DNA from: Candidatus Methylomirabilota bacterium | GTDB lineage: Bacteria; Methylomirabilota; Methylomirabilia; Rokubacteriales; CSP1-6 | Direction: 5' to 3' | Length of the DNA: 64,000 bases | NCBI GenBank assembly: GCA_035709005.1 | Contig: DASTFB010000008.1 | Location: 1 to 64,000, forward strand | In this document: positions 39,996 through 53,847 of the stretch, in pieces | Layout: each line of letters starts with the position of its first letter | Numbering within the stretch: the stretch's first letter is position 1 | The notes under the pieces: generated by a model | Told to the model about the DNA's origin: nothing | What the model saw: only the letters and a program-made list of their open reading frames with translations | Database searches by the model: none | Program-made: the position numbers and the translations under genes

Positions 39996-40301
39996 AAGGC
40001 CGGCCTGGTGGCGAGTCCGGCCCGGCCGGGCGGGAACGTCACCGGCCTCACCCTGTTGTTCGTGGACGAGGGCGGCCTGATGGCGTACGGGCCGAGCCGG
40101 CCCGACCTCTACCGGCGTACGGCGGCCTACGTAGACATCTCTACGCACGCTGGCCGTGTCAACAGCGACTCGGGGCCAAGCCGGCCGATTTGCCCGCGAC
40201 CGACGAAGTTCGAGTTCGTCATCGACGTCAAGGCCGCCCGGACGCTCGCTCTCGCCATCCCGGCGACGGTGCTGGTCCGCGCCGATCAGCCGATCGAGTA
40301 A
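39996..40301 (+). pseudogene. Decayed ABC_sub_bind-type substrate-binding protein gene
   Basis: The region keeps recognisable fragments of the TrpX/ABC substrate-binding family: VASPARPGGNVTGLTLL joined directly to GGLMAYGPSRPDLYRRTAAYVD, and then, after a scrambled stretch, PTKFEFVIDVKAARTLALAI and ADQPIE before the stop. About 170 residues between the first two pieces and the whole N-terminus are missing, and the linker (GAKPADLP in another frame) shows that indels have broken the frame. It is a gene remnant, not a functional gene, and fills most of the 367-nt gap before the citrate synthase gene. Confidence 0.85.
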
Positions 40302-40355: not shown

Positions 40356-41486
40356 ATGACCGAGGGAGGCGGCCTGATCCGCGGGCTGGAAGGTGTAGTC
40401 GCCGCCGAGACCCGGCTGTGCGATCTCGACGGCGCCAACGGCCGCCTGGCCTACGGCGGCTACGACATCGACGACCTGGCCCGCCGGGCCACGTTCGAGG
40501 AAGTCGCCCACCTGCTCTGGCACGGCGAGCTGCCGACCCGCGCGCAGCTCGATCGGCTGCAGGCCGAGCTCGTGGCGGCCCGCCCCGTGCCGCGTGAGTT
40601 GCTGCAAACGTTCGTCCTCATGCCCCGGGCCACCGATCCGATGCGCACGCTCCAGGCGGCGGTGGCCATCCTCGGCATGCACGACCCGGACGCCACCGAG
40701 AACACGCACGAGGCCAACCTGCGCAAGGCGGTCCGGCTGACCAGCCAGCTCGCCACCGCGATCTGCGCGCAACATCGAATTCGCGGCGGCCAGGAGCCCG
40801 TGGCGCCGGTCAAGGATCTCGGCCACGCCGCCAACTTCCTGTACATGCTGACGGGCGAGCGGCCGACCCCGGTCACCACGAAGGCCTTCGACGCGAGCCT
40901 CACGCTCTACGCCGAGCACGAGCTGAATGCCTCCACCTTCACCACCCGGGTCATCACCTCCACCCAGTCCGACATGCACTCGGCGGTGGCGGGCGGGGTG
41001 GGCGCGCTCAAGGGCCCGCTGCACGGCGGGGCGGGCGAGGCGGTGATGCGCACGCTGATGGAGATCGGCGACGTCGCCGACGTCGAGCGCTTCACGGAGC
41101 AGGCGCTGGCCACCCGGCGTCGGCTCATGGGCTTCGGCCATCGGGTGTACAAGGCGGGCGACCCGCGGGCGGCGATCCTCAAGGGGATGGCCGAGGAGGC
41201 CTGCCGGCAGTCCGGGCAGTTCAAGTGGTTCGAGATGGCCGTGCGGCTGCACGAGCGGATCAACCGGGCCAAGGGCCTGATCCCCAACGTCGACTTCTAC
41301 TCGGCCCCACTCTTCTATTCGCTGGGGATCGCCGTCGACCTGTTCACGCCGGTCATCGCGGCCGGCCGCGTCGCCGGCTGGACGGCCAACATCATCGAGC
41401 AGCACCGCGACAACCGGCTGATCCGGCCCCGGGGGGACTATCAGGGGCCCGGCCGCCGCGCCTGGCTGCCCCTCGAGAAGCGATGA
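40356..41486 (+). CDS. Citrate synthase / 2-methylcitrate synthase family
   Basis: A 376-residue citrate synthase-fold enzyme condensing an acyl-CoA with an oxo-acid such as oxaloacetate. Short-type (no N-terminal beta extension). Catalytic residues are present: His in LYAEHELNASTF, His in GFGHRVYKAGDPR, and Asp in PNVDFYSA; the GPLHGGAGEAV loop is typical. ATG at 40356 follows GAGGAG. It opens a closely packed operon whose next genes are aconitase and a PrpF-like isomerase. This company makes a methylcitrate-type reaction plausible, but the sequence alone does not separate acetyl- from propionyl-CoA use. Confidence 0.9.
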   Translation: MTEGGGLIRGLEGVVAAETRLCDLDGANGRLAYGGYDIDDLARRATFEEVAHLLWHGELPTRAQLDRLQAELVAARPVPRELLQTFVLMPRATDPMRTLQAAVAILGMHDPDATENTHEANLRKAVRLTSQLATAICAQHRIRGGQEPVAPVKDLGHAANFLYMLTGERPTPVTTKAFDASLTLYAEHELNASTFTTRVITSTQSDMHSAVAGGVGALKGPLHGGAGEAVMRTLMEIGDVADVERFTEQALATRRRLMGFGHRVYKAGDPRAAILKGMAEEACRQSGQFKWFEMAVRLHERINRAKGLIPNVDFYSAPLFYSLGIAVDLFTPVIAAGRVAGWTANIIEQHRDNRLIRPRGDYQGPGRRAWLPLEKR

Positions 41487-43414
41487 GCGCGGGGCGCAGC
41501 CTCACCCGCAAGCTGATCGACGAGCACCTCGTCGCCGGCAAGCCGTCGGTGGGCGAGGAGATCGGCATCGCCGTCGACCAGATCCTATTGACCGACACCA
41601 ACGGCATCCAGTCCTGGCTGCAGTTCGAAGCGATGGGCTTCGGGGGGGTCAAGCCGGGCCGGGTGGTGACCTACATCGACCACAACGTCTACCAGTTCGA
41701 CTCCCGCAACTCCGACGACCACCGGTATCTGCAGACGGTGTCCCGTCGCTACGGCGCCGTGTTCTCCAAGCCCGGCAACGGCATCTGTCACCAGGTGCAC
41801 GTCGAGAGCTTCGCGGTCCCCGGCGAGGTGTTGCTGGGGTCGGACAGCCACACCCCGCTCTGCGGCGCCGCCGGGATGCTGGCCATCGGGGCCGGCGGGC
41901 TCGACGTGGCGGTGGCGCTGGGCGGCGGACCTTACTTCTTTCCCATGCCCGCCGTGGTCCGCGTCTGGCTCACCGGCCGCCTCGGCCCCTGGGTCACCGC
42001 CAAGGACGTCATCCTGGAGCTGCTGCACCGGTTGAGCGTGCGGGGCGGCACCGGAAAGATCTTCGAGTACGGCGGCCCCGGTCTCGAGAGCCTGCTTTTG
42101 GCCCAGCGGATGACGATCGCCAACATGGGCGCCGAGCTCGGCCTGACGACGAGCGTGTTTCCGAGCGACGACGTCACGCGCTCGTACCTGACCCGTCTCG
42201 GCCGTGGCGAGGACTGGCGGCCGGCCCTGCCCGACGACGACGCTTCGTACGACGACCAGATCGAGCTGGATCTGAGCGCCATCGGGCCGCTGGTGGCCCT
42301 GCCCGGATCGCCGGACCGCGTGGTTCCGGTGGTCGAGGTGGCCGGCACCCCGGTCGAGCAGGTCATGGTCGGCTCGTGCACGAACGGCTCCTGGCACGAC
42401 ATGGCCTCGGTGACGGGGGTGATGCGCGGCCGCCGCGTGCACCCCTCGGTCTCCTTCATCCTCTTCCCGGGCAGCCACCGCATCCTCGAGACGATGGCCC
42501 GGGAGGGGCTGCTCACCGACCTGCTGGCCGCCGGGGCGACCGTGTCCGAGTCGACCTGTGGCGCATGCCCGGGGATCGGTCACGTGCCGGCCAGCGGGGC
42601 CAAGAGCCTGCGGGCCTTCAATCGCAACTTCCCGGGGCGCAGCGGGGTCAAGGACGACCAGGTCTATCTCTGCTCGTCGGTGACCGCCGCGGCCTCCGCC
42701 CTGACGGGCGCGATCACCGATCCGCGAACGCTCGGCCCCGAGCCTCCCGTCACGCTCCCCGCCCAATTCGCCTCCTCGACCGTCGGGTTCGTGGCGCCGG
42801 ACGGGCGAGGTGAGGTCGTGCGCGGGCCGAGCATCAAGGCCGTGCCGCTCGGGGAGGCGGTCACGGAGACCCTGGAGGCGCCGGTGCTGCTCAAGCTCGG
42901 CGACAAGGTCTCCACCGACGACATCTCGCCTTCGGGGGCCGGGGTCCTGGTGTTTCGCTCCAACATCCCCGCGATTGCGGAATTCACCTTTCGCCACGTG
43001 GATCCCGAGTTCGTGGCCCGCGCCCGCCGGTCGGGTGTCGGGATCATCGTGGCCGGCGAGCTGTACGGCCAGGGCTCCTCGCGCGAGGTCGCGGCCATCG
43101 GACCGATGTTCCTCGGCGTCCGCGCCGTCATCGTCAAGTCGTTTGCCCGCATCCACCGGGCGAACCTGATCAACTGGGGTGTCGTTCCCCTGGTCTTCGA
43201 CGACCCCAGCGTCTGGGACGAGCTGGAGCGCGACGACCGGCTGCGCCTGGAGGACCTGAGAGCGGCGTTGGCCCAGGGCCACCGCGTCCGCGTCACCAAC
43301 CTCCGCTCGGGGCGTTCGTTCACCGCGTCGTGCGTGCTGACGCCGCGCGAGCGGGACATCCTCCTGGCCGGCGGGCTCCTCGCCCACACACGGGCGGCGT
43401 CAGGGTCATCGTGA
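41483..43414 (+). CDS. Aconitate hydratase, short (~640-residue) type
   Basis: A 643-residue [4Fe-4S] dehydratase. The iron-sulfur cysteines are visible in VGSCTNGSWHDM (near residue 298) and ESTCGACPGIGHVP (two Cys, near 355-358); substrate residues SDSHTP and QGSSREVAA (residues ~545) are intact. It lacks the long linker of ~890-residue AcnA and the domain order of AcnB, matching mitochondrial-like short aconitases and homoaconitases. ATG overlaps the citrate synthase stop (ATGA) and its own stop overlaps the GTG of the PrpF-like gene (GTGA). Substrate could be citrate, methylcitrate or homocitrate. Confidence 0.9.
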   Translation: MSAGRSLTRKLIDEHLVAGKPSVGEEIGIAVDQILLTDTNGIQSWLQFEAMGFGGVKPGRVVTYIDHNVYQFDSRNSDDHRYLQTVSRRYGAVFSKPGNGICHQVHVESFAVPGEVLLGSDSHTPLCGAAGMLAIGAGGLDVAVALGGGPYFFPMPAVVRVWLTGRLGPWVTAKDVILELLHRLSVRGGTGKIFEYGGPGLESLLLAQRMTIANMGAELGLTTSVFPSDDVTRSYLTRLGRGEDWRPALPDDDASYDDQIELDLSAIGPLVALPGSPDRVVPVVEVAGTPVEQVMVGSCTNGSWHDMASVTGVMRGRRVHPSVSFILFPGSHRILETMAREGLLTDLLAAGATVSESTCGACPGIGHVPASGAKSLRAFNRNFPGRSGVKDDQVYLCSSVTAAASALTGAITDPRTLGPEPPVTLPAQFASSTVGFVAPDGRGEVVRGPSIKAVPLGEAVTETLEAPVLLKLGDKVSTDDISPSGAGVLVFRSNIPAIAEFTFRHVDPEFVARARRSGVGIIVAGELYGQGSSREVAAIGPMFLGVRAVIVKSFARIHRANLINWGVVPLVFDDPSVWDELERDDRLRLEDLRAALAQGHRVRVTNLRSGRSFTASCVLTPRERDILLAGGLLAHTRAASGSS

Positions 43415-44520
43415 CCCAGCGGCGGATCCGGGCGGTCTACATGCGAGGCGGGACCAGCCGCTGTCTGGTCTTTCACACGGAGGACCTGCCTCCGGCCGGC
43501 GTGGCCCGCGACCAGATCCTGTCGGCGGCGCTGGGCAGCCCCGATCCTTACGGCCGGCAGCTCGACGGGCTGGGCGGCGGGATCTCGTCGCTGTCGAAGG
43601 CGTGCATCATCGGCCCGCCGAGCCACCCCGAGGCCGACGTCGATTACACCTTCGCCCAGATCGACGTGAAGAGCCCGCTGGTGGACTACACGGGCAACTG
43701 CGGCAACTGCTCGTCGGCGGTGGGGCCGTTCGCCATCGACGAGAAGCTCGTCCTGCCCACCGCCAGCCCGGCGGCTGTCCGCATCCACAACACGAACACG
43801 CGCAAGCGCATCGTCGCCCGCGTGCCCCTGGAGGACGGGCTGGCGGCGGTGACGGGGGACTTCGAGCTGCCCGGCGTACCCGGTCGCGGAGCCCGGATCA
43901 CGCTGGACTTCCTGGAGCCCGGCGGCGCCGTCACGGGACGGCTCCTGCCCACTGGGCGGCCGCGCGACGTCGTCGGCGGGCACGAGGCCTCGCTGGTCGA
44001 CGCCACGAATCCCGTCGTGTTCGTCCGGGCGCGAGATCTCAAGCTCGGCGGCACCGAGATGCCGGCGGCGATCGACGCCGACCGGGCGCTGGTCGCGCGC
44101 CTGCTGGCCATCCGGACCGAGGCCGCAGCGCTCATGGGCGTCGTCGGCAGCCCGGCCGTCCCCATGATCGCCCTCGTGGCGCCGGCCGTCCCCTTCACCA
44201 CGCTCGACGGGCGCGCCGGGGACGCCGACAGCGTCGACCTGCTCGCCCGCGTCATGTCCATGGGGAACTGTCACCGGGCCTTCGCCCTCACCGCATCCAT
44301 GTGCCTGGCCGTGGCCGCCCGCATCGAGGGGACGGTGGTCCACGAGTGCGTGACACCGCCGGACGCCTCCCGGTCCACCGATATCCGCCTCGGTCACCCC
44401 TCCGGGATCCTGCCCATCGCCGCCTCCGTCGTCACCCGGGACGGCCAACCGTATGCCGAGCGCGTGACCGTGTATCGAACGGCGCGCCGCCTGATGGAAG
44501 GGTTCGTGAGAGTGCCGTGA
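43411..44520 (+). CDS. PrpF-like aconitate/methylaconitate cis-trans isomerase
   Basis: A 369-residue member of the PrpF (DUF453) family, which has the diaminopimelate epimerase fold. Hallmarks: AVYMRGGTSRCLVFH at the N-terminus, DPYGRQLDGLGGGISSLSKACII, VDYTGNCGNCSSAVGPFAI (conserved Cys), and MSMGNCHRAFALT. In the 2-methylcitrate cycle PrpF converts the trans-methylaconitate made by AcnD into the cis isomer. Here the adjacent aconitase is not an AcnD by length. GTG start at 43411 overlapping the aconitase stop. Alternatives include oxalomesaconate or 3-methylitaconate isomerase. Confidence 0.87.
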   Translation: MTQRRIRAVYMRGGTSRCLVFHTEDLPPAGVARDQILSAALGSPDPYGRQLDGLGGGISSLSKACIIGPPSHPEADVDYTFAQIDVKSPLVDYTGNCGNCSSAVGPFAIDEKLVLPTASPAAVRIHNTNTRKRIVARVPLEDGLAAVTGDFELPGVPGRGARITLDFLEPGGAVTGRLLPTGRPRDVVGGHEASLVDATNPVVFVRARDLKLGGTEMPAAIDADRALVARLLAIRTEAAALMGVVGSPAVPMIALVAPAVPFTTLDGRAGDADSVDLLARVMSMGNCHRAFALTASMCLAVAARIEGTVVHECVTPPDASRSTDIRLGHPSGILPIAASVVTRDGQPYAERVTVYRTARRLMEGFVRVP

Positions 44521-45056
44521 GCCAGCTCTACCGCGTCGCCGCCGGCGAAGAGATCGCCCGCCGGCGCGCGCGCCTGCCGGCGGGTAGCGTCATCGAAACC
44601 TGGAGCGATCTGTACGTCCCGGGGCGCTTCTGGCTGGGCGCCGAGTCCAAGACCCTCCTCGATTCGCTGGGGGAGCCGGTGCCCGTCGAGCTCGGCCTGC
44701 CCGCGTCCAGCGTGGCCATCTACTACGGGCCGCGTCTGCGCGACCTCGATTCCCTCCCGCCCGAGGAATCGCTCAAGGCTCGCGTGTTGTCGGGGCACGG
44801 TATCGCGGTGGCCTGGGTGACGCTCGATCGCTTCGGCGAGCGGGTGGCCTATCAGCCGACGTCGCCGCGCGACCCCGTGTTCCACCTGCGTCGCCGCGGT
44901 GGCGGTGTCGCACATCTGTGGCGGTTGTTCCCCTCCCGCGCTGCCGCGGTAGCCTACATGGCCGAGGCGTACGGCGACGCCGAGGCGATGCAGTGGGCCG
45001 AGGCGGTGGCCGACGAGGACTTCGACGCCCTGCTCCAGCGCCATGGCGCGCGATGA
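44517..45056 (+). CDS. Hypothetical protein, 179 residues
   Basis: I do not recognise this protein. It is soluble-looking, with no signal or membrane segment and several acidic/aromatic stretches (VIETWSDLYVPGRFWLG, AVAWVTLDRFGERVAYQP). It starts at GTG 44517 overlapping the PrpF stop (GTGA) and its stop overlaps the ATG of the acyltransferase (ATGA), so it is embedded in the operon and certainly translated. Codon use is like its neighbours. Confidence 0.75.
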   Translation: MSQLYRVAAGEEIARRRARLPAGSVIETWSDLYVPGRFWLGAESKTLLDSLGEPVPVELGLPASSVAIYYGPRLRDLDSLPPEESLKARVLSGHGIAVAWVTLDRFGERVAYQPTSPRDPVFHLRRRGGGVAHLWRLFPSRAAAVAYMAEAYGDAEAMQWAEAVADEDFDALLQRHGAR

Positions 45057-46453
45057 CGACTGCCGTCGCCGGCCTCGCCAGCGAGCGGGAGTTCTTCTAC
45101 CCGTTCCTCCGTCTGGTGGCCCGGTTCTGGCTGTGGTTCCTGTTCAAACGCGTCCACGTCCGGCACCTCGAGCGCGTCCCCCAGACCGGGCCGGTCATGC
45201 TCTGCATCAACCACCCCAACAACCTCATCGACTCGCTGCTGGTGGGCGCCGTGATGCCGCGCAAGGTGCACTTCCTGGCCACGGCCACTCTGTTCCGGCG
45301 GCCGTTGCTACGACGGCTCTTGCCGGGGGCCGGGGTGATCCCCATCTATCGCAAGCAGGATGAGCCCTCGGCCTCCGCATCGAATGCCGAGGCTTTCGCC
45401 GCCTGTCACGCCGCCTTCGACCAGGGCGGTGTCGTCGCCATCTATCCCGAGGGCACCACCCACGCCGAGGCCCGCGTGCAGCGCATCAAGACCGGCGCCG
45501 CCCGGATCGCCCTGAGCTTCGAGGCGCAGCGCCCCGAGACCCTGAGCGTGATCCCGGTCGGACTGTCGTTCGAGGCGCGCAAGTCGTTCACGGCGCGGGT
45601 GCTCGTCTCCTTCGGAGAGCCGGCGGCCTTGACGGCGTACGGCCGGGCCTACCGGGTCGATCCGGTCAAGGCCGTCGAGGAGCTGACCGCGGCCATCCAG
45701 TGGGCCATGGAGGCGCAGGTCGTCCACGTCGACCGGATCGAGACCGCGGCCGTCGTGCGGGCGGTCGAGGAGCTGTACCGCAGCCACCTCGTGCGCGAAC
45801 TGCGCGCGGAGCGCGGCCTGGCCGAAGATGAGGTCGACCTCTTTCGGATCTCCCGCTCGATCGTGGAGGCGGTCGAGCACTTCAAGGAGCGCGACCCTCA
45901 GCGCGTCGAGCGCCTCTGGCGGCGGATCCAGGCCTACCGCGCGCTCCTGGCCCGCTACCAGGTGACGGATGACGCCGTGCAGGCCCGGTTGGGGCGGCGC
46001 ACGATCCGGCGGCGCGTGCTGAGCGCCGGCGAGGCCGTTGCCGTGTTCCCGCTGTTCGCCTACGGCGCCTTCGTCAACGCCCTGCCCTACTTCGTGCCGC
46101 GCTGGCTGGCCCGGCGGCGGGCCCGCAAGGAGACCGACTATGCGACGACGCGCCTGCTGGCGAGCATCGTCGCCCTGCCGCTGTTCTGGGGTCTGGAGAT
46201 CTGGCTGGTGGTCCGGCTGGCCGGTGTCCTGTGGGGCGCGCTCTTCGCGCTCTCGCTGCCCCTGAGCGGGCTCGTCGCCTACCACTATCTCAGGGGAATC
46301 GACACCCTCCGGCACGGCATGCGGCTCGGCCTGCTCGCGCTGACCCGGGGGGCGGTCGCCCGGGACCTGCTCGCCGAGCGCCGGCAGATCATCGCCGAGC
46401 TGGACCGGGCGCGGGAGGGCTACCTGGCGGCCACGCGGGGCTCATCGTTCTGA
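45053..46453 (+). CDS. 1-acyl-sn-glycerol-3-phosphate acyltransferase-like (PlsC) protein with C-terminal membrane domain
   Basis: A 466-residue membrane protein. Residues ~15-200 form a PlsC-type acyltransferase domain with block I CINHPNNLIDSLLVG (catalytic His, with the NHPN-x3-D spacing seen in GPAT-like members), block III IYPEGTTHAEARVQ and VIPVGLSFE. A charged helical region (~200-320) follows, then several hydrophobic helices (~330-430) including LFWGLEIWLVVRLAGVLWG. This extended architecture is known in acyltransferases of uncertain substrate. It is locked into the operon by overlaps at both ends. Confidence 0.85.
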   Translation: MTTAVAGLASEREFFYPFLRLVARFWLWFLFKRVHVRHLERVPQTGPVMLCINHPNNLIDSLLVGAVMPRKVHFLATATLFRRPLLRRLLPGAGVIPIYRKQDEPSASASNAEAFAACHAAFDQGGVVAIYPEGTTHAEARVQRIKTGAARIALSFEAQRPETLSVIPVGLSFEARKSFTARVLVSFGEPAALTAYGRAYRVDPVKAVEELTAAIQWAMEAQVVHVDRIETAAVVRAVEELYRSHLVRELRAERGLAEDEVDLFRISRSIVEAVEHFKERDPQRVERLWRRIQAYRALLARYQVTDDAVQARLGRRTIRRRVLSAGEAVAVFPLFAYGAFVNALPYFVPRWLARRRARKETDYATTRLLASIVALPLFWGLEIWLVVRLAGVLWGALFALSLPLSGLVAYHYLRGIDTLRHGMRLGLLALTRGAVARDLLAERRQIIAELDRAREGYLAATRGSSF

Positions 46454-47388
46454 TGGCAGCCTCGACCGTGAACGTCCATCGGCTCGAGGAGATCACCATG
46501 CCGGCGCTCGACGCGCTCGATCGCGAGCGGGCCGTCGTCGTGCTCACCGTGAGCCCGCTGGAGCAGCACGGGCCTCACCTCCCGCTCGGCGTCGACGCCT
46601 TCACGGCGCGTCACTTCGCCGAGGAGATCGCCCGGCGCCTGACTGCCGAGCGGCCGGGATGGTCGGCCGTGCTGGCGCCCACGCTGCACCTGGGGTCCTT
46701 CACCTTCGAGGCGGTCGGCACTGTTCCCGTACGGCAGCGCGTGGTCCGCGACGCCGTCGTCGACTTCGGCACGGCGTTCGCCCGGGCCGGGTTCCGCTAC
46801 GTCGTGGTGGCCAACGGCCACGCCGGGCCCACCCACCTGGCGGCCCTCGATGAGGCGGCCGCGACCGTCTCGGGCCGCCACGGGATCCGCATGGCCTCGC
46901 TGTCCGGGGGGCTCATCGCGCAATTCCGCTCCGGCCGTTTCCTCGACCAGGTCGAGACCGCGCTGGGGCGGCCGCTCGCCGATGCCGAGCGGCGCGCCTT
47001 CGCGGAGGACGCCCATGCCGGCTGGTGGGAGACCTCGATGATGCTGATGCTGCGCCCGGAACTGGTGGATGGCGCGTGGCGCGACCTGCCCCCGGCCACC
47101 TATTCGCTGCCCCAACGGCTCGTCCCCAACTATCCGCTCCGCGACGGCGCCGCCGGGTACGTGGGCCACCCGGCGCTGGCCGACCCGGCGTTCGCCAGGG
47201 CCACGACGACGGTGCTGCTGGCGGAGGCGATGCGGCTGGTCCACGCGCTGCTCGATGGACGGCTCGGTCCCACCGCCCGGCCCTCGCCGTACTACGCCAT
47301 TCCTTTCTTGAGAACGGACTTCTGGCGGCTGGCCGCAGCGGCCGGCCTCGGGCTGGCCGCGCTCGCCTGGCTCCGGCCCCGGCGGTAG
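46453..47388 (+). CDS. Creatininase-family amidohydrolase with C-terminal membrane anchor
   Basis: A 311-residue creatininase-fold metallo-amidohydrolase. Metal-binding signature SPLEQHGPHLPLGVDAF at residues ~36-52, VVVANGHAGPTHLAAL near 115-130 and DAHAGWWETSMML near 178-190 are all present. Related enzymes hydrolyse creatinine, mycofactocin precursor or formamide pterins. Unusually, the last ~25 residues form a hydrophobic helix (LAAAAGLGLAALAW) followed by RPRR, suggesting the protein is tail-anchored. ATG overlaps the acyltransferase stop by one base. Confidence 0.85.
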   Translation: MAASTVNVHRLEEITMPALDALDRERAVVVLTVSPLEQHGPHLPLGVDAFTARHFAEEIARRLTAERPGWSAVLAPTLHLGSFTFEAVGTVPVRQRVVRDAVVDFGTAFARAGFRYVVVANGHAGPTHLAALDEAAATVSGRHGIRMASLSGGLIAQFRSGRFLDQVETALGRPLADAERRAFAEDAHAGWWETSMMLMLRPELVDGAWRDLPPATYSLPQRLVPNYPLRDGAAGYVGHPALADPAFARATTTVLLAEAMRLVHALLDGRLGPTARPSPYYAIPFLRTDFWRLAAAAGLGLAALAWLRPRR

Positions 47389-47398
47389 CCGAGCCATC

Positions 47399-48148
47399 AT
47401 GCTGCTCGTCGAGGTCACGACGGACAACGGCGTGGCCTGGCTCCGTCTGAACCGGCCCGACGCGCTCAACGCGCTCAGCACCGCGCTCACCGAGGCGCTG
47501 GAGCAGGCGCTGGAGCGAGTGGCCGGCCAGGATGATGTCAGCGTGCTGATCGTGGCCGGGCGAGGCCGCGCCTTCTGCGCCGGCAACGACCTGGCCGAGA
47601 TGGGCTCGCTGTCCCCGGAAGCGGCGGCGGCGTTGGCCACCCGTCAGGCCGCCCTGATGGACCGCTTCTCCCAGCTGCCGCAGGTGACGATGGCCGCCAT
47701 CGACGGTCACGCCCTCGGCGGCGGCCTCATGCTGGCGCTCGCTCAGGACGTGCGGATCGCCTCCGATCGGGCGCGCTTCGGCCTGCCCGAGGTCACGCTG
47801 GGCTTCAATCCGGCCTACGGCATCGCCCGCCTGCTCGACATCGCCGGCGGCGGCCACGCGCGCGACTTGTTGCTCACCGGCCGCACCGTCCACGCCAGCG
47901 AGGCGCTGCGCATGGGTCTGCTGAACCGGGTGGTGGCGCCGCCCACCCTGGAGGCCAGCGCCGGCGCCTGGGCCGCCGAGATCGCCGCCTCGCCGCGCGA
48001 AGGCCTGGCGGCGACGAAGGCGATCGTGCGCAGCCTGCGGGCGGGCCCGCGGGGAGGCGAGCCGGAGGCCTACGGGGCGGCGCTGCGCACCAGCCCGCAA
48101 GCGCGCGAGCGGATTCGGGCCTTCGTGGAGCGCAAGGGCCGGAGATAG
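47399..48148 (+). CDS. Enoyl-CoA hydratase/isomerase family protein
   Basis: A 249-residue crotonase-fold protein. Oxyanion-hole segments AFCAGNDLAEM (residues ~59-69) and DGHALGGGLMLALAQDVRIA (~102-121) are present, and the LPEVTLGFNP stretch retains one of the two usual Glu residues while the second position (PAYGIARLLDI) differs from typical hydratases. So substrate or reaction type is uncertain. It lies 10 nt after the creatininase gene and 42 nt before the LIV-type binding protein. Confidence 0.9.
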   Translation: MLLVEVTTDNGVAWLRLNRPDALNALSTALTEALEQALERVAGQDDVSVLIVAGRGRAFCAGNDLAEMGSLSPEAAAALATRQAALMDRFSQLPQVTMAAIDGHALGGGLMLALAQDVRIASDRARFGLPEVTLGFNPAYGIARLLDIAGGGHARDLLLTGRTVHASEALRMGLLNRVVAPPTLEASAGAWAAEIAASPREGLAATKAIVRSLRAGPRGGEPEAYGAALRTSPQARERIRAFVERKGRR

Positions 48149-52112: not shown

Positions 52113-52819
52113 TGCTCGAGGTGCGGGACCTCACCGTGGACATCCAGGCCAGCCGGGTCCTGCGCGGCATCCGTCTGGAAGTGAGCCAGCACGAGCTGGT
52201 CTGCCTGGTGGGGCGCAACGGCGCCGGCAAGACGACCGCGCTGCGGACGATCATGGGGTATCTGCGGCCGGCCGCCGGCGCCATCACGTTCCGGGGCGAG
52301 AGCCTGGTCGGGCTGCCCACGCACGCCATCGCCGCGCGCGGCATCGGCTTCGCTCCCGAGGAGAGCGAAGTGTTCGGAGACCTCACAGTGGCCGAGAACA
52401 TCGAGATCGCCACGTGGACGCGGCCGACGGGGCGCCCGCCCGCGGAGCGCGTCGAGCGGGCCTACCACGTGTTCCCCCGACTGCGGGGGTACGCCACCCG
52501 GGGCGGCACGCAGCTGTCCGGGGGCGAGCGCAAGATGCTGTCGGTGGCGCGCGCCCTGGCGCTGGATCCGCACCTCTTGTTGCTCGACGAGCCGTTCGAA
52601 GGCCTGTCCCCGGCCATCATCCCGCTCATCACCGCCTCGATCTCGGACATCGCCCGGCTCGGCGTGGCCATTCTCATCGCCGAGTCCAACGTCCACCACG
52701 TGCCCGAGCACGCCACCCGCTTGTACGTCATCGAGCGCGGCGAGATCATCTTTGCCGGCAAGCCGCAGGACGCCCGGCGCGACCCGACCGTCCTGCGCAT
52801 CATCGGAGGAGGACCCTGA
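52112..52819 (+). CDS. LIV-type ABC transporter ATP-binding protein (LivF family)
   Basis: A 235-residue ATPase. Walker A GRNGAGKTTALRTI, IGFAPEESEVFGDLTVAENIEIA, signature LSGGERKMLSVARALALDP, and Walker B LLLLDEPFEGLSP are all canonical for LivF. The usual Q-loop position carries PEES, a common variant. It starts one base into the LivG stop (TAATG) and its own stop shares one base with the ATG of the MetE-like gene (TGATG), so the five transporter genes and the methyltransferase form one coupled operon. Confidence 0.93.
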   Translation: MLEVRDLTVDIQASRVLRGIRLEVSQHELVCLVGRNGAGKTTALRTIMGYLRPAAGAITFRGESLVGLPTHAIAARGIGFAPEESEVFGDLTVAENIEIATWTRPTGRPPAERVERAYHVFPRLRGYATRGGTQLSGGERKMLSVARALALDPHLLLLDEPFEGLSPAIIPLITASISDIARLGVAILIAESNVHHVPEHATRLYVIERGEIIFAGKPQDARRDPTVLRIIGGGP

Positions 52820-53847
52820 TGCCATCCCTGCCGCTGATTCCCACCGCCGTCGTCGGCTCCCACGGCAAGCCCGGCTGGTGGTTCACCGTGGTGAAGGCCT
52901 ACGAGGCCGGCGAGGCCGGCCCCGCCGATGTCGAGGAGATGTTCGATGACGCCGCCGACACCGCCATCCGTGACATGGAGCGGGCCGGCATCGATATCAT
53001 CACCGACGGCGAGGTGCGCCGGCTCGACGGCTACGTCGACTCCTACTACGCCATCATCAAGGGCATCCGCCCGCTGCCGGTCCGCCGCAAGCTGGGGCCC
53101 TGGGGCTACGATCAGCAGACGCGCTACGAGGCGGTCGGGCCCATCGAAACGCCGCCCGGCGGCCTGGGCATCGTCAAGGAGTTCGAGTACCTGCGCGCCC
53201 GCACCACGCGGGCGACCAAGGCCACCTGCGCCGGACCCCTCACCTTCGGGTCGCGGATCCTCCCGGGCACGGTGTACGCGGGGGTCGTCGATATCGCCGA
53301 GCGCTTCGCCGACGTCATCAACGCCGAGCTGCAGGCGCTCGCGGCCGCTGGCGCCGACTTCATCCAGATCGACGAGCCGGCCCGCGGCAACGTGACCGGG
53401 GAGGAGATGGCCCGGCTCTTCAACCGGGCCACCGAGGGCGTCCGGGCCCGGCTGGCCTTTCACATCTGCTTCGGCAACCGCTACGGGCGCTCCCGCTTCG
53501 CCCGGACGTACGCGCCGTACTTCCCGGGCCTCCTGAAGGCGCGCGCCGACCAGTTCGTGCTGGAGTTCGCCGGCCGGGAGCTCAGCGAGCTCGAGCTGTG
53601 GAAGCAGTACGGCGACGGACGCCAGCTGGGCGCCGGCGTCATCGACGTCAAGGGCTTCGAGCAAGACACGGCCGAGGATGTGGCGCGGCGGATCCGTCGC
53701 GTCCTGCACGTGTGTCCGGCCGAGCGGCTGACCGTCAATCCGGATTGCGGCTTCGGCTGGTCGCCGCGGTCCATGTGCAATCAGAAGCTACGCGCGCTCG
53801 CCGCCGGCGCCGCCCTCGTGAGGAAGGAGCTGGGCGTCACCGGTTGA
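52819..53847 (+). CDS. Cobalamin-independent methionine synthase-like (MetE C-terminal domain) protein
   Basis: A 342-residue stand-alone MetE/UROD-fold domain. It keeps the substrate/zinc elements IPTAVVGSHGKPGWW, GIDIITDGEVRRLDGYVDSYY, CAGPLTFGSRILPGT, DFIQIDEPARG, FHICFGN (His and Cys ligands) and NPDCGFGWSPRSM (second Cys). It lacks the N-terminal half of true MetE, like archaeal MesD-type or methylcobalamin/other methyl-donor enzymes. As the last gene of a LIV-type importer operon it may transfer a methyl group from the imported compound; that is inference. Confidence 0.88.
   Translation: MPSLPLIPTAVVGSHGKPGWWFTVVKAYEAGEAGPADVEEMFDDAADTAIRDMERAGIDIITDGEVRRLDGYVDSYYAIIKGIRPLPVRRKLGPWGYDQQTRYEAVGPIETPPGGLGIVKEFEYLRARTTRATKATCAGPLTFGSRILPGTVYAGVVDIAERFADVINAELQALAAAGADFIQIDEPARGNVTGEEMARLFNRATEGVRARLAFHICFGNRYGRSRFARTYAPYFPGLLKARADQFVLEFAGRELSELELWKQYGDGRQLGAGVIDVKGFEQDTAEDVARRIRRVLHVCPAERLTVNPDCGFGWSPRSMCNQKLRALAAGAALVRKELGVTG

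Follow-up and report, generated by a model that had tools for sequence, protein, structure and literature searches.

The window, a stretch of 64,000 nucleotides, carries three consecutive genes on the plus strand, encoding a protein of the type II citrate synthase / 2-methylcitrate synthase family (40356–41486, 376 aa, ATG start; TIGR01800), a short Aquifex-type aconitase (41483–43414, 643 aa, ATG start; NF005558, TIGR01342) and a PrpF-family allylic isomerase (43411–44520, 369 aa, GTG start; PF04303). The stop codon of the synthase overlaps the ATG of the aconitase by four bases (ATGA) and the stop codon of the aconitase overlaps the GTG of prpF by four bases (GTGA). The ORFs, the four-base overlaps and the family scores given below all confirm the coupled arrangement that was proposed in a first-pass annotation of this DNA. 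That annotation had also placed neither AcnD nor PrpB nearby, which holds, since genome-wide searches detected neither a further member of the aconitase family nor any PrpB-superfamily gene on the 148-kb contig. An ORF for a 179-aa protein (44517–45056, plus strand) overlaps the prpF stop codon in the same way, again by four bases, and the coupled unit therefore comprises at least four genes. This protein gave no family match in NCBIfam or Pfam, and its AlphaFold model (mean pLDDT 87.8) matched nothing in the PDB at E <= 0.001 with Foldseek and nothing at Z >= 5 with VIA-align. Many Rokubacteria have its gene next to the triad (23 of 80 PrpF loci, these being the best 80 of 505 relatives), and it was not seen in the triad loci of other phyla in that set.

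The synthase scored 475 bits against TIGR01800 (citrate synthase II / 2-methylcitrate synthase; cut-off 421) and keeps the catalytic residues His223, His262 and Asp313. For PrpC of Salmonella, Tyr197 and Leu324 have been proposed to determine substrate choice, the corresponding residues of citrate synthases being His and Val, with the role of these positions termed unclear by the same source (PMC9765439). Tyr185 of the window synthase (codon 40908–40910) aligns with Tyr197 and is of the PrpC type, and Val312 is of the citrate synthase type. All 35 triad synthases (from the best 80 of 505 PrpF relatives) carry the PrpC-type Tyr, and all three synthase paralogues of the host have His at this position. 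Alignment with PDB chains placed Tyr in four proteins that carry the name methylcitrate synthase or a description as PrpC (3o8j, 6s6f, 3tqg and 3hwk) and also in two labelled citrate synthase (1aj8 and 1a59); His was found in 1iom and 6abx, and neither residue in 2p2w.

The aconitase exceeded the cut-offs of NF005558 (811 bits, cut-off 612) and TIGR01342 (801 bits, cut-off 719), the latter being the model of the Aquifex-type aconitases. The cluster cysteines and the catalytic serine motif are kept (GSCTN, TCGACPG, SSRE). It is not an AcnD, with 135 bits against the AcnD model TIGR02333 (cut-off 1420) and a position apart from AcnD in a tree. Pro replaces Ile at residue 363 (42569–42571), the position directly following the last cluster cysteine. 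Among 42 candidate aconitases from the best 80 of 505 PrpF relatives, three of them unreadable at this position, the 39 readable ones had Pro (15) or Ala (24). Six housekeeping-type aconitases (the host TCA enzyme, three short NC10 enzymes and two AcnA) have Ile, both AcnD compared have Asn and YbhJ has Phe. The idea that Ile425 of mitochondrial aconitase acts as a steric block for methylcitrate was dropped as evidence because the source consulted points to an aspartate instead (PMC3556520), and residue 363 is accordingly treated only as a difference beside the cluster cysteine. As the same source describes aconitases as unable to carry out the syn-elimination that (2S,3S)-methylcitrate requires, another stereoisomer or alkyl group may be involved here.

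The PrpF protein matched PF04303 with 360 bits (cut-off 27) and scored under the cut-offs of both TIGR02334 (methylaconitate isomerase PrpF; 306 bits, cut-off 441) and NF033377 (4-oxalomesaconate tautomerase; 303 bits, cut-off 440). Its best match among solved structures was the 3-methylitaconate delta-isomerase Mii (PDB 3g7k, 289 bits). Lys63 (43597–43599) and Cys97 (43699–43701) are the counterparts of K73 and C107 in the Shewanella protein and were invariant in 12 aligned PrpF sequences. The Shewanella enzyme is reported to require Lys73, with Cys107 needed for growth on propionate, and to convert 4-methyl-cis-aconitate, the likely product of AcnD, to 2-methyl-cis-aconitate (PMC5690661).

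To place this protein, a careful PrpF tree was constructed, in which the triad PrpFs fell in at least three places within one clade (99/95) that also includes neighbours of TcuA-like, D-2-hydroxyacid and aspartate dehydrogenase-like genes, among others. The AcnD-linked PrpFs of Caballeronia and Photobacterium formed a separate clade (100/100) with copies from Acinetobacter and Azoarcus. The window PrpF thus groups outside the AcnD-linked proteins and with isomerases encoded beside tricarballylate dehydrogenases. The first-pass annotation takes AcnD to be the usual partner of PrpF, but this premise is too restrictive, as E. coli ybhH lies near ybhJ, which belongs to the aconitase family, and the PrpF superfamily includes aconitate isomerases, as reported in PMC11495376 and PMC4720413. 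A Shinella PrpF encoded near tcuA, tcuB and acnA is 52% identical to the window protein over its whole length. Ten TcuA-like flavoproteins, nine encoded at PrpF loci plus that of Shinella as control, all exceeded the NF006130 cut-off of 369 (450–707 bits), and only the Shinella protein exceeded that of a second TcuA model (TIGR02485). TcuA converts tricarballylate to cis-aconitate, according to the title of Lewis and Escalante-Semerena (2006) as listed in PMC10468695, and the TcuA-linked sister PrpFs therefore point to an aconitate-type substrate, methylated or not, for this PrpF subfamily.

The conservation of the locus was followed in the best 80 of 505 PrpF relatives from a named genome collection and in 95 genomes of the host's phylum; the two sets overlap (for example, locus L080 and genome G079), so that the counts obtained from them are not independent. 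The complete triad, in the order synthase, aconitase and PrpF, was found at 35 of these 80 loci and is therefore beyond chance and not a local oddity. Twenty-six of the triads belong to Rokubacteria/Methylomirabilota, five to Nitrospinota (L126–L130), two to Chloroflexi (L118 and L139) and two to further bacteria (L134 and L137) that group with the Nitrospinota. The triad extends beyond what was visible to the first-pass annotation, from the host lineage to Chloroflexi and Nitrospinota. At six of the same 80 loci aconitase and PrpF are present and the contig end leaves no room for a synthase; one locus has both genes without a synthase. The other 38 lack a called triad aconitase ahead of PrpF; among them are four that begin at the edge of a contig and eight for which the gene caller gave no gene matching the window PrpF. 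In quick trees the triad synthases formed a single starred group, as did the triad aconitases, both trees splitting alike into Rokubacteria versus Chloroflexi plus Nitrospinota, with few outgroups and with long outgroup branches flagged. The congruence of these two trees and the scatter of the triad proteins in the PrpF tree indicate that synthase and aconitase travel together and that this PrpF subfamily extends beyond the triad.

PrpF was found in 56 of the 95 phylum genomes. PrpB over its cut-off was detected in ten of the 95, all within the PrpF-positive set, and was absent from the remaining 46 of the 56; the PrpB contexts of five of the ten were read, and none of these contained a synthase or the triad. 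Five of the nine triad genomes outside the phylum, for which genome completeness is not given, have a PrpB just over the cut-off (355–359 bits versus 354), while the others gave 353.6 and 273 bits and, for the two Chloroflexi, 77 bits and no match. The triad neighbourhoods that were read showed no recognisable PrpB-like gene. A second aconitase, with a frame of about 900 aa, was present in eight of these nine genomes.

The host, a Candidatus Rokubacteria-like genome (4.59 Mb, 134 contigs, 95% complete), encodes four citrate synthases, that of the triad and three others. The fourth citrate synthase-like gene lies just beyond the window (C8:64512-65660, minus strand), scores 399 bits against TIGR01800, below the cut-off of 421, and contains an inserted stretch. 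The TCA aconitase of the host is a 753-aa mitochondrial-type enzyme (TIGR01340, 1033 bits, cut-off 825) in a separate operon, where genes judged by eye to be isocitrate and malate dehydrogenase-like, fumarase-like and succinate dehydrogenase-like are its neighbours. The window PrpF is the sole PF04303 match in the genome. Four PrpB-superfamily proteins are encoded on other contigs, two of them, on contigs C47 and C31, with the KRCGH motif, and the better of these two most resembles oxaloacetate acetylhydrolase and petal death protein. The first-pass annotation had called for a genome search for prpB, and no protein exceeded the cut-off of the PrpB model (highest score 254 bits, 354 required); its statement that no PrpB is nearby stands for the contig, but the genome does encode the two KRCGH proteins, both below the cut-off. 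Four matches to the methylmalonyl-CoA mutase family were also found and could possibly represent an alternative route for propionyl-CoA. It should also be noted that NF006130 was exceeded in 52 of the 95 phylum genomes; the TcuA of the host (C97, 593 bits) was set aside as evidence, its neighbours being unlinked to the triad and the protein, by eye, not of the PrpF-linked kind.

Gene content, coupling, conservation, the kept catalytic residues and the two altered specificity positions were established directly. The reading preferred here, with a probability of roughly 0.4, is that the triad forms a dedicated tricarboxylate branch outside the TCA cycle, similar to a prpC-acnD-prpF segment but with a short aconitase and a PrpF of another subfamily. 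We infer its substrate, direction, product and lyase as follows. The synthase would condense oxaloacetate with propionyl-CoA (most likely) or another short acyl-CoA to an alkylcitrate, which the aconitase would dehydrate to an alkyl-cis-aconitate. PrpF would then move the double bond by a Lys/Cys allylic mechanism, giving an isomer that could be rehydrated by an aconitase. This order of synthase, dehydratase and double-bond shift is suggested by the chemistry reported for Shewanella PrpF (PMC5690661) together with the matching Lys63 and Cys97. A lyase not linked to the triad would be required to cleave the product, and the two KRCGH proteins elsewhere in the host genome are candidates for it.

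A variant methylcitrate route, which the first-pass annotation had suggested, agrees with the gene order of prpC-acnD-prpF, with Tyr185 and with residue 363, and is less well matched in its lyase and in a PrpF that is not of the AcnD type; such a route is possible and, as a single reading, slightly favoured as the best. The homocitrate-like route suggested beside it was rejected, as no supporting gene was found. The homocitrate synthases known so far are members of another family. The weak point of the alkylcitrate reading is the lyase: PrpB is not linked to the triad, and none over the cut-off occurs in the host or in those 46 PrpF-positive genomes of the phylum. The citrate-type Val312, the Tyr shared with 1aj8 and 1a59 and the placement of PrpF with the TcuA-linked group would also speak against it, as would the putative propionyl-CoA route through methylmalonyl-CoA mutases. 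A methylcitrate operon has been reported that can exist and yet go unused for growth on propionate (PMC11861179). Isocitrate lyase of P. aeruginosa is described as having a secondary methylisocitrate lyase activity (PMC11982470), and some other lyase might therefore serve the triad route. A bolder version, in which at least three phyla share a previously undescribed tricarboxylate pathway that does without a classical methylisocitrate lyase and in which a specialised synthase, a short aconitase whose pocket is remodelled and a non-AcnD PrpF would yield and rearrange an alkylaconitate for a new end reaction, is considered rather improbable.

The main rival to the alkylcitrate reading is that the synthase and aconitase pass plain citrate to cis-aconitate and that PrpF is a cis/trans-aconitate isomerase, in the making or use of trans-aconitate or related tricarboxylates. 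The PrpF-superfamily proteins TarA and TbrA are reported to be aconitate isomerases (PMC11495376), as is Adi1 of Ustilago (PMC4720413), and Shewanella PrpF is itself credited with aconitate isomerase activity (PMC5690661). The citrate-type Val312, the clade shared with PrpFs coupled to TcuA-type tricarballylate dehydrogenases and the closeness of the Shinella protein from the tcuA, tcuB and acnA locus are in line with this, although the nine TcuA-like neighbours outside Shinella scored under the second TcuA model. However, Tyr185 and Pro/Ala363 point to a substrate other than citrate, and no MFS transporter or LysR gene was recognised among the adjacent called genes, unlike in tarR-tarAB. Moreover, an isomerase and an aconitase would by themselves suffice for assimilation, which leaves the dedicated synthase unexplained. 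Plain aconitate chemistry is regarded as rather unlikely, while being the strongest of the competing proposals.

It is also conceivable, though distinctly less so, that the substrate is some other alkylated tricarboxylate, either a longer alkylcitrate or an intermediate linked to a 2-hydroxyacid, which would be catabolised and fed by a neighbouring ABC importer. A LivHMGF-type importer follows many Rokubacteria triads, directly in L073 and L111 and after one small gene in L063, and Pro or Ala in the pocket is smaller than Ile. In Nitrospinota and the bacteria grouping with them (L126, L127, L129, L130, L134 and L137), the triad is immediately preceded by a D-2-hydroxyacid dehydrogenase gene (PF00389/PF02826 in three scanned cases); such a gene also precedes a PrpF without synthase or aconitase in Tectomicrobia and other Nitrospinota (L120, L121, L125 and L145). 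These neighbours, however, vary between phyla, so that no common partner names the substrate, and Liv-type importers appear plentiful in these genomes, judging from the several sets seen in the contexts. Least probable of all, and very unlikely, is that synthase and aconitase are redundant TCA enzymes with PrpF as a bystander. Both are near ordinary families, with curated scores over cut-off and intact catalytic residues, but both differ from the housekeeping forms at specificity positions, and in different phyla the three genes have stayed together in genomes that also encode other aconitases. A role in the TCA cycle only was rejected as the main reading because another aconitase is present in the host and in eight of the nine triad genomes outside the phylum.

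Among the known systems closest to the triad, the prpB-prpC-acnD-prpF operon of the AcnD-type 2-methylcitrate cycle, as in Caballeronia (L164) and Shewanella, has the same order of synthase, aconitase-family dehydratase and PrpF (for Shewanella as given in PMC5690661) and shares the PrpC-type Tyr of the synthase and the Lys and Cys of PrpF. It differs in that the triad aconitase has 643 aa and is not AcnD, the PrpF is of another clade and neither prpB nor prpR is adjacent. E. coli ybhH-ybhI-ybhJ likewise combines a PrpF-family protein and an aconitase-family hydratase in one gene run but has no synthase; its function is annotated as putative, and YbhJ is very divergent, with Phe at the pocket position. 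The short NC10 aconitases of the Aquifex type (52–54% identity) agree with the triad enzyme in length, domain order and catalytic residues, whereas the three compared keep Ile at position 363 and come from genomes without a PrpF match. No synthase is known in the system of Mii. That enzyme works in nicotinate fermentation (PMC4720413), unlike the role proposed for the triad PrpF. The trans-aconitate systems tarRAB and tbrAB have a PrpF-superfamily isomerase in common with the triad (PMC11495376), which, in contrast to them, includes a synthase and an aconitase; among its called neighbours in the window, inspected by eye with four scanned against Pfam, neither an MFS transporter nor a LysR regulator was recognised.

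Many PrpF homologues are reported to sit in operons of unknown function (PMC5690661), and among the papers listed in searches of open-licence full texts, which also covered methylcitrate in Rokubacteria and Nitrospinae, none was described as dealing with a citrate synthase-aconitase-PrpF operon. The triad is a conserved case of such an operon; as it has only three core genes, its catalytic residues are intact and two specificity positions can be named, substrate and product are directly testable with recombinant enzymes. Should the alkylcitrate reading be true, AcnD would not be the sole aconitase-type partner of PrpF in such routes, and the annotations 'citrate synthase' and 'aconitate hydratase' would hide a second pathway in soil and marine lineages, for which models counting the triad genes as TCA enzymes would be wrong.

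Several other genes were observed around the triad and around other PrpFs. Upstream of the synthase, a 97-aa ORF (40008–40301) is 39–46% identical to parts only of proteins of about 300 aa encoded elsewhere and may therefore be a decayed gene for an ABC-type substrate-binding protein; an apparently full-length relative lies directly after PrpF in L069. Acyltransferase, creatininase-like and enoyl-CoA hydratase-like genes (45053–48148) follow the triad in most Rokubacteria loci, although no metabolic relation is apparent. Further downstream, 52819–53847 encodes a short cobalamin-independent methionine synthase-like protein (PF01717), which is encoded repeatedly in the vicinity of the triad, in Rokubacteria and in both Chloroflexi (68–83% identity in L118, L139 and L112). 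At three NC10 loci (L115, L116 and L117), PrpF lies directly behind an aspartate dehydrogenase-like gene (PF01958). In three Rokubacteria loci (L181, L182 and L183), where no PrpF was recognised beside it, a TcuA-like dehydrogenase adjoins a PrpB-superfamily lyase that is 46–47% identical to the host protein encoded on C47.
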